Assembly (NCBI GenBank): GCA_014872815.1
Contig: WKFK01000014.1
Span: forward strand, 558,001-622,000
Direction of reading: 5' to 3'
DNA from: Paracoccaceae bacterium
GTDB lineage: Bacteria > Pseudomonadota > Alphaproteobacteria > Rhodobacterales > Rhodobacteraceae
DNA length: 64,000 bases
Shown: positions 8,150 to 9,841 of the stretch, one piece after another
How the letters are laid out: each line of letters starts with the position of its first letter
Numbering within the stretch: position 1 is the stretch's first letter
Made by a program: the position numbers and the translations under genes
Notes under the pieces: model-generated
Database searches by the model: none
What the model was told of the DNA's origin: nothing
Seen by the model: the letters and a program-made list of their open reading frames with translations, nothing else

Positions 8150-9841
8150 TCATTCTTCAAGCGTTTTGAACACCTGTGGCAGAATCTCGGGCAGGTCCTC
8201 CGCGATCAACCCGGCCCCAAAGGCGCGCGCGCATTCCACATGCAGCCAGGCCGCTGCTTCCGCCGCCTGTTGCGGCGCAAAGCCGCGCGCCAAAAGCCCT
8301 GTGATGAACCCCGCCAAGACGTCCCCTGATCCCGCTGTCGCCAACCAAGGCGCCGCGCGCTCATACACCGCCGCATTCACCGCACATTGTCCGTTTGGCG
8401 AAGCGATCACAGTATCCGGCCCCTTAAACAGAACGACGCAGCCTGCCCGCGCCGCCGCCTCCCGCGTGGCATCCACCTTGGAATAGGCCGGACCTTTGGT
8501 CGGTGGGTCCGCCAGTTTGGCCGCAATGTACGGAAAAAGCCGCGCAAACTCGCCACCATGCGGCGTCAGAACAACGTTCTCATGCAAAAGCGCAAACAAC
8601 TCGTTGGGATCATCCTCAAAGGCACTCAACGCATCCGCATCTAAAACCGTAGCACGCTTAGAGGACAACGCCACCGGGACCAGTTCCCGCGCGCGTTCCA
8701 CCCCCATACCCGGCCCCAAACATAGCGCGTTTAGGCGTTCATCCTGTAAGGCATCCTCAAGCGCCGCAGCACCCGACACCCGCTGCAGCATCAAGGCGGT
8801 GATCTGGCAGGCCACCTCTTGCTGTGCATTGGGCGGCACGCCCAACGTGACCAGCCCAGCCCCGATGCGCAAAGCGCCGCGCGCCGCCAACCGCGCCGCG
8901 CCGGTTTTGCCAGAACCGCCAGAGAGGACAAGCGCGTGGCCGTGGGAGAACTTGTGTCCGAGATGGCTTGCCGCGCTAAGTTCGCCTTTGTTCAGTCCGT
9001 AAATAACGTCAGAGCAATCAACCAATTCTACGCGAGCATAGCCTTCATCAAAGTGAAACGACCCGATCCCAATATCCACAACCACAGTCTTTGCCTGATG
9101 TAATGCGGCACAACCGAGAAAATGACCCAGCTTGGCAGAATGAAAAGTCACAGTCAGATCCGCCTCTACACCCCATAAATCGGCCTGCTGCAGCATCTCC
9201 CGCCCACTGTCCAAGTCGACGCCTGAAACACCGTCAATCGCGACCAGTTTTCCCACAGGGTGATGCGCCAAAGTCTCTCGGATTTTCCCAAGAGAAACGC
9301 CCAGGGGACGCGCAAGCCCTGTTCCAAACAGGCCGTCAACAATCAAGTCAAAACGCGACACGGTTTGGCCGATCAGTGTCACGGCATCTTTCACCTCCCC
9401 CACCGCGCACCACCGCTCATAATTCACCCGGGCATCCGGCGGCAGCTTCTCGGCATCTCCATAGAGAAACACCTCCACGTCCCAGCCGCGCCCCTGCAAC
9501 AGCCGCCCCACAACAAAACCGTCGCCGCCATTGTTCCCCGGCCCGCACAAAACGACGGCTCGCATTCTCATTCCAGAAATATCCTGAGGGGTGAGATCCG
9601 ATCCGCCTTTGGCGGCAAAGCGTCCAGAGGACGCTTTGAGGGTCGAACGGGGCGAAGCCCCTATCTGAGCAGGCTTGGAGGCAGCGGCCCTCTCTTCAGC
9701 AAACTCCGGCCACTCCTCAAAAATGGCCTCCACAACGCCCTGCCCGGCCCGCTCCATCAGCTCCAGACCGGTCACCTCACCCGACTCAATCGCAGCCTGC
9801 TCGATGGCGCGCATTTGGGCAGCGGTTAACAATTCGCTCAT
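8150..9841 (-). CDS. nnr: Bifunctional NAD(P)H-hydrate epimerase / ADP-dependent NAD(P)H-hydrate dehydratase
   Basis: Two-domain metabolite-repair enzyme (563 aa) restoring hydrated NAD(P)H. The N-terminal YjeF epimerase domain starts [20 protein letters not shown] and has [17 protein letters not shown] near residue 98 and the [13 protein letters not shown] loop. The C-terminal YjeF/CARKD dehydratase domain has [33 protein letters not shown] and the [20 protein letters not shown]-site motif near the end. Oddly, about 40 residues rich in A, S, G and K (residues about 54-93) sit between the first helix and the first strand of the epimerase domain. They are encoded by an extragenic-type palindromic repeat inserted in frame (see 9576-9662). 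Confidence 0.94.
9576..9662 (-). repeat. Extragenic palindromic repeat inserted in frame in nnr
   Basis: Read on the minus strand: a GGGGCTTCGCCCC hairpin, an AAAGCGTCC/GGACGCTTT hairpin, a CCGCCAAAGGCGG hairpin, then a CCCCTCAGGATATTTCTGG tail continuing into AATGAGAATG. The same tail (CCCCAGGATATTTGTGG followed by AATGAGAATGAG) closes the intergenic repeat at 41636-41707, and the AAATATCC.GGGG core recurs at 23635 and 37301. Here the element lies inside the nnr reading frame, without a stop. Confidence 0.75.

Follow-up and report, generated by a model that had tools for sequence, protein, structure and literature searches.

An in-frame palindromic repeat in nnr of Rhodobacteraceae, probably read as a tolerated loop

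The window analyzed here, a 64,000-nucleotide stretch of a Rhodobacteraceae genome (Paracoccaceae bacterium, assembly GCA_014872815.1, contig WKFK01000014.1, positions 558,001 to 622,000), contains an nnr gene whose reading frame runs through a series of hairpins, which raises the question of whether a repeat of extragenic type has entered a protein-coding gene, and what became of it there. We consider it highly likely that the insert is an in-frame copy of a palindromic repeat of Rhodobacteraceae, located in the loop between helix 1 and strand 1 of Nnr, where it would be translated as a tolerated, disordered loop. At the sequence level, the family identity of the insert, its open frame, its absence from many orthologues and the recurrence of inserts in the same loop in two frames all point to this reading, as does the agreement of the insert tail with the host genome's own copies in most genomes tested.

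The element within the nnr reading frame

The nnr product is matched by both Pfam YjeF_N (PF03853) and Carb_kinase (PF01256), as well as by NCBIfam TIGR00197/TIGR00196, and contains the GPGNNGGDG motif; with both Pfam domains and this motif, it belongs to the YjeF/Nnr family. In its epimerase domain, the linker from the first helix to the first strand exceeds the usual 34 residues by 41, and 33 of these extra residues are encoded by the repeat (Table 1). The position and the lengthening of about 40 residues originally predicted were thus confirmed, while the repeat itself accounts for 33 residues. Likewise, the three hairpins proposed at 9576-9662 are all present, but they are consecutive rather than nested, and the element reaches position 9563. 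The last ten bases of the tail, AATGAGAATG in the window's nnr copy, are referred to below as the host dialect.

Table 1. Features of the nnr locus and related repeat copies in the window (positions in window coordinates).
Feature	Position	Strand	Basis
nnr (yjeF), bifunctional NAD(P)H-hydrate epimerase/dehydratase, 563 aa	8150-9841	-	ORF, Pfam, NCBIfam
Non-repeat portion of the lengthened linker, residues 49-60	9662-9697	-	comparison with 34-aa linkers
In-frame palindromic repeat, 99 nt, encoding residues 61-93	9563-9661	-	sequence, R1 match, pLDDT <50
Hairpin 1, GGGGCTTCGCCCC, 5' end of the element	9649-9661	-	sequence; also opens intergenic copy L130
Hairpin 2a, CAAAGCGTCC-TCT-GGACGCTTTG	9616-9638 (arms 9638-9629, 9625-9616)	-	sequence, fold
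Hairpin 2b, CCGCCAAAGGCGG (CCGCC-AAA-GGCGG)	9603-9615	-	sequence, fold
Conserved tail, CCCCTCAGGATATTTCTGGAATGAGAATG, family signature	9563-9591	-	sequence and tail-pattern searches
Intergenic family copy (L106), between divergent genes by home-made calls	41644-41707	+	66.1 bits, R1 training copy
Intergenic family copy (L134)	37286-37356	-	42.5 bits, outside the R1 training set
Possible degenerate copy, not significant	23624-23668	-	12.5 bits, E 0.6

An AlphaFold model of the window's Nnr, built with 39 sequences, reached a mean pLDDT of 81.6 and a pTM of 0.53, with pLDDT below 50 at residues 57-88 and confident flanks; the modeled insert is a low-confidence, probably disordered loop. The residues of helix 1 are conserved across an alignment of 39 Nnr proteins, in which insert-bearing and insert-free Nnr are mixed. 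In the solved Thermotoga Nnr (2ax3), the segments aligned to the helix and the strand lie just 2 residues apart, although the helix alignment, taken alone, is very weak (0.2 bits). As nucleic acid, the element is only mildly stable when compared to shuffled sequences (z of -1.78, with 9 of 200 shuffles folding as well). No Rfam 15 family matched the element at the gathering score, the window holding only tRNA and PYLIS_3 matches. The latter, a match to the pyrrolysine insertion sequence of mttB at 23100-23199 (40.8 bits), is a separate observation, possibly reflecting an mttB-like methyltransferase gene rather than a pyrrolysine signal.

A dispersed family and a rejected candidate mover

We then searched the genome for relatives of the insert. 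Allowing up to 3 mismatches, the tail pattern was found twice in the window, against 0.03 expected, and 31 times in the whole 3.96-Mb genome, 30 of these places being read as loci, while the reversed pattern was not found. The canonical element in this genome consists of hairpin 1 (GGGGCTTTGCCCC or GAGGGGCCAGCCCCTC), followed by a second palindrome whose sequence is free, then by CCCC[A/G] and GGATATTTNNGGAATGAGAA[A/T]G; across lineages, the layout is hairpin 1, a variable middle palindrome, CCCC[A/G]GGATATTTNNGG and a lineage-specific end of 10 nt. When family copies were analyzed with RNAalifold, hairpin 1 alone was retained, because the middle palindrome is too variable for alignment.

A covariance model (R1) was built from 25 intergenic copies of the window's own genome, leaving out the nnr copy. 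It detected 55 places in that genome at E ≤ 0.01, among which the nnr insert was recovered over 9561-9625 (36.4 bits, E 5.6e-6, own-genome search); this match, as well as the BLAST matches of the window insert, rests on the tail and its surroundings, with hairpin 1 lying outside both. The genome-wide searches thereby link the insert to the intergenic family. Of the individual relatives named in the original prediction, the repeat at 41636-41707 (though a training copy) and that at 37301 proved to be family members, whereas the one at 23635 did not reach significance. According to a simple, home-made gene caller based on codon bias and trained on 28 window ORFs, 54 of the 55 places are intergenic and nnr is the only one inside a CDS. 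Among these 54, 22 lie between convergent genes, 3 between divergent genes, and 19 and 10 lie behind an upstream gene in sense and antisense, respectively; moreover, a stop codon is found within 25 nt on at least one side in 45. Further intragenic copies in this genome were considered and discarded, as the ORFs spanning other R1 places were judged by inspection to be shadow or 5'-extended ORFs; the only one submitted to Pfam, a sense ORF of 346 aa at L128, had no match.

The family extends well beyond this genome. Counting the own genome in both cases, R1 matches were found in at least 23 of 25 genus-group genomes, with 0 to at least 85 copies each, and in at least 86 of 120 genomes drawn from Rhodobacteraceae; these are lower bounds, as 150 candidates were scored per genus-group genome and 43 per family-wide genome. 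In addition, when plasmids were searched using the insert from Ruegeria halocynthiae nnr (L265) as query, 34 records were matched, a few at hairpin 1 only, and the best places fell outside any listed gene in 31 records, in a CDS in 1 and in unannotated sequence in 2, the gene tables being incomplete. Of two more plasmid searches, one matched 6 records, with a CDS in 2 (putA, as before, and a photolyase-like gene), and the other matched 9 records, none with a CDS. In putA of a Paracoccus liaowanqingii plasmid (NZ_CP040764.1; L310:2226-5666), a family copy is read in frame and antisense (…LLHLGENIPGGPGGWPPG…) between the Pfam matches to proline dehydrogenase and aldehyde dehydrogenase; when aligned to the solved PutA 5kf6, this region has 9 extra residues. 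The photolyase-like gene, on a plasmid of Cereibacter azotoformans (NZ_CP089971.1; L312:1730-3097), contains a full in-frame copy in sense (…EGAAPPEDIFARMKDG…), placed between its two Pfam matches.

As a candidate mover, the single RAYT of the window's genome (NCBIfam NF047646, 177.2 bits) was considered and rejected, since the palindromes beside it differ from the family and the number of copies is not tied to the presence of a RAYT. The adjoining palindromes are of the GTGCGCA type, no copy of the family tail was found in the 3.3-kb locus around the gene (L097), and the nearest family copy, approximately 1.55 kb from the RAYT match, was counted as chance; no cognate RAYT flanked by the repeat was thus found for this family. 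Y1_Tnp matches were obtained in 8 of 25 Shimia-group genomes (7 over the cut-off), compared to 23 of 25 for the repeat, and 17 of 25 genus-group genomes have no RAYT match, including G121 and G127, which hold at least 85 R1 copies each. The family shares size and location with REPs of REP/RAYT systems, from which it differs in that the RAYT-adjoining palindromes have another sequence. Two copies of a different palindrome (GGGTGCGCA...TGCGCACC), perhaps the REP of the RAYT itself, were observed 3' of the RAYT gene (L097:1881-1950).

Occupancy of the Nnr loop and its possible history

To place the insert among its relatives, 153 distinct nnr genes were parsed, of which 102 lack the insert, 43 carry a recognizable element and 8 have other additions (two further loci, L182 and L208, were not parsable, the latter with a weak R1 match of 14.6 bits). 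The insert-free genes keep conserved, contiguous flanks around a linker of 30-38 residues, exactly 34 in 96 of them, and the recognizable elements add 14-41 residues. The element is in sense and its frame open in all 43 genes, and two frames are used, as defined by peptide patterns drawn up after inspection of the inserts: frame A (…PRDISGKRKR-AVVL) in 23 genes and frame B (…PPGYLxxDEE…RAVVL) in 20. In frame A, the start of the tail core precedes a conserved R codon by 22 nt in 18 genes and by 25 nt in the other 5; in frame B, it does so by 30-39 nt in 19 of the 20 genes. All 43 inserts hold a hairpin whose arm is 5 bp or longer, compared to 269 of 860 windows of the same length from the same genes and 14 of the 102 empty, and shorter, linkers.

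The R1 model led back to the same loop. Outside the window, 13 of its 15 matches at E ≤ 0.01 in genus-group loci fall in the linkers of nnr from other genomes, the best of them scoring 51.6 bits (three of the 13 being second copies from a genome already counted), and the remaining two (L035, L020) in flanking DNA. In a further set of nnr loci that included other genera, all 15 matches at that threshold are in linkers, six of them from genomes already in the genus-group set, with scores of, e.g., 32.4 bits in Aliiroseovarius (L188), 26.2 in Ruegeria pomeroyi (L199) and 24.3 in Tritonibacter (L225). The insert is therefore not the one-off case first supposed: many Rhodobacteraceae genomes have this loop filled, and copies also occur in other genes. 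Two genomes speak against the link to the family: G125 has a lengthened linker in which no element is recognizable, and its genome holds no R1 copy, while G068 bears the element in nnr, with no R1 copy found in its genome under the stricter filter.

How the loop came to be occupied so widely was evaluated on a protein tree of nnr with the linker removed (147 tips, six of the 153 sequences being shorter than 450 aa and excluded); this tree was computed quickly from one gene, and several of its nodes are weak. Presence and absence of the insert require at least 30 changes, below all of 300 shuffles of the labels (32-47), and the insert is therefore also partly inherited, with inheritance playing a large part.

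The tails of the inserts, in turn, follow the host genome. The dialect AATGAGAA[A/T]G is the main type in the window's genome and in G128, and occurs beside other types in G141; CCAGATGAAG was found in G043, G144 and G145, CAAGAGGAAG in the R. pomeroyi strain (G146), G031, G137 and others, CAGGATGAAG in G118, and CCAAAAGAAG in G127, a genome with no nnr insert. This listing is limited by the patterns used, two of which lean to the dialects of the window's genome and Ruegeria. Of 25 insert-bearing genomes searched, 8 gave no pattern match; one of these, G006, has 24 R1 copies, so that the patterns are too strict there. In 11 of the remaining 17, the nnr copy and another copy in the same genome agree in all of their last ten bases (or in nine, if the pattern stopped short of the tenth). 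When nnr copies were compared with distinct host tails, nnr copies being excluded from the host set, the summed distance was 15, against 38.0 for permuted hosts, and was reached in none of 20,000 permutations, a count that is not a strict probability because the genomes are related. Mismatches amount to 4 in G139, 3 in G137 and G120, 2 in G043 and G131, and 1 in G073; for G139 and G120, one genomic copy each is known from the patterns, and exact matches are 11 of 15 when both are left out. This agreement indicates that in most cases the in-gene copy was newly inserted from, or corrected by, the host family.

We propose that the repeat spreads or exchanges within each genome and would usually persist just 3' of stop codons, while persistence inside a gene would need a strand free of stops in the landing frame and a surface loop able to tolerate 14-41 extra residues. 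By reading, TGA closes one of the three sense frames of AATGAGAA, CCAGATGAAG and CAGGATGAAG, with no such stop in CAAGAGGAAG, and nnr uses only the two other frames. The nnr copy would then be translated as a disordered loop, for which no gain of function is needed, and could track the genomic family either by repeated insertion and loss or by ectopic conversion from other copies. The original proposal that a repeat was inserted with the frame intact and became a tolerated loop is supported by the family link, the insert-free orthologues and the dialect match in 11 of 17 genomes. Domestication is not: the insert is present patchily, differs in length and is modeled as disordered, which argues for tolerance instead.

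Several observations complicate this picture. In eight lengthened linkers no element is recognizable, 18 of 23 frame-A copies have a common right junction, and 6 of 17 dialects are inexact. Above all, the uniform sense orientation in all 43 genes runs against random recurrent insertion, which does not predict it, and among own-genome copies of at least 60 nt (n = 41) an open frame is no rarer in antisense than in sense. Uniform orientation favors a polar target, or shared descent followed by conversion. Tentatively, the loop between helix 1 and strand 1 may be a preferred, orientation-specific exchange site that is rewritten as the repeat dialect of the genome changes, in which case this segment of Nnr would evolve in concert with extragenic repeats and not with its own gene.

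Alternatively, one or two ancient insertions, one per frame, may have been inherited and often lost, with the survivors rewritten by ectopic gene conversion. We regard this as quite possible, short of our first choice. It accounts for the uniform orientation and for the single right junction of most frame-A copies; the insert and its frames are clustered on the nnr tree (9 frame switches among 42, compared to a shuffled mean of 14.2), frame A is found in 7 of the 8 members of the window's own subclade, and dialect tracking is equally expected from conversion. Nevertheless, two frames with different insertion points imply two or more origins, or else indels that compensate, one gain followed by losses costs 44 changes, compared to 31 for gains only, and several sister pairs are unlike in insert presence. 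As it is a strict form of the conversion option, it does not exclude the reading of the insert as a tolerated repeat copy.

It is very unlikely that the nnr copy functions as RNA, with the hairpins, or a Shine-Dalgarno-like AGGA followed by ATG, serving as an internal processing or start site that would yield a shortened Nnr. The window tail does read AGGATATTTCTGGAATGAGAATG directly before the core domain, and elsewhere the family is located at gene ends; nevertheless, an in-frame M occurs in the tail of 8 of 23 frame-A copies and in none of the 20 frame-B copies, and both the unbroken frame through every element and the conservation of helix 1 speak against it. Finally, a hypervariable, low-complexity linker that resembles the repeat by convergent composition would fit the eight lengthened linkers in which no element is recognizable, but it is contradicted by the genome-wide link, the R1 E-values, the hairpin in every insert and the host-specific tails, and can practically be dismissed.

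Relation to known repeats and further additions to Nnr

Rickettsia palindromic elements (RPEs) are palindromic repeats of about 150 bp found in frame in unrelated protein genes, nearly half of them lying in ORFs (PMC10969869, PMC3733652). The present family resembles them in that a palindromic repeat lies in frame within a protein gene; it is likewise dispersed, and the host frame is kept, with contiguous flanks in insert-free orthologues. Compared by description, it differs in its host order, in having 1 of 55 own-genome copies inside a gene where RPEs have nearly half, and in the occupation of a single locus in many genera. A second parallel is offered by the REPs tagged with GTAG or CGTC, small hairpin repeats located mostly between convergent or unidirectional genes, near their stop codons, and sometimes in frame (Di Nocera et al. 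2013, PMC3733652), for which recB of X. campestris and X. oryzae was hit at about one site (PMC3733652). With these, our family shares hairpins, proximity to stop codons, occasional in-frame copies and a locus that is hit again. Unlike them, it is an asymmetric element with a conserved ATATTT tail: GTAG is found in none of 25 aligned copies, and CGTC, on the sense strand in 9 of 25, sits at the boundary between hairpins 1 and 2 of one sub-type and not at the foot of the stem. The text of PMC3733652 does not mention Rhodobacter, Ruegeria or Dinoroseobacter. The QMITEs of Coxiella also add in-frame residues to some proteins as short repeats, and are set apart by their description as MITEs with terminal inverted repeats (PMC5896051).

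Since in-frame RPEs and intragenic GTAG/CGTC REPs have been described, in-frame palindromic repeats are already known as a kind. What is new, as far as our literature searches tell, is this repeat family, a single loop filled time and again across many genera, and a dialect that often agrees with that of the host; the searches returned no description of this repeat or of an in-frame case in roseobacters, a weak negative given that subscription journals were mostly uncovered. Protein-coding palindromes are thereby extended to a large family of mostly free-living bacteria. Moreover, nnr offers a natural series within one gene, with the loop either empty or filled, the filled loops using one of two frames and in many cases a sequence specific to the host, which makes repeated entry versus homogenization by conversion, as well as the cost of the repeat to the enzyme, testable. 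With its solved relatives and known chemistry, Nnr is suited to direct measurement of any effect of the loop.

Other additions to Nnr were also observed. A second loop, before the dehydratase-domain strand RAVVLDADAL (around residue 376 in the numbering of L255), carries in-frame inserts of 17-69 residues in seven genomes of other Rhodobacteraceae genera (L152-L156, L014 and L180). By eye, at least four of the seven look like different palindromes (GGCCCCGGATCAGGTCCGGGGC, CCCGGGCTTGACCCGGG, or long inverted arms of CCCTCCCC), with sequences such as VPGLTRDL...GPGSGPGR and PPPPTPPHKGEGG...LPLPLVGRGQGRG; an R-[AV]-V-V-L strand follows both loops. In addition, an epimerase-domain addition of 28 residues, at around residue 183 in the same numbering, is common to the nnr genes of three Shimia-group genomes (L057, L059 and L060) and a Ruegeria atlantica strain (L207), which are grouped together on the nnr tree, and may mean that nnr was transferred between genera.
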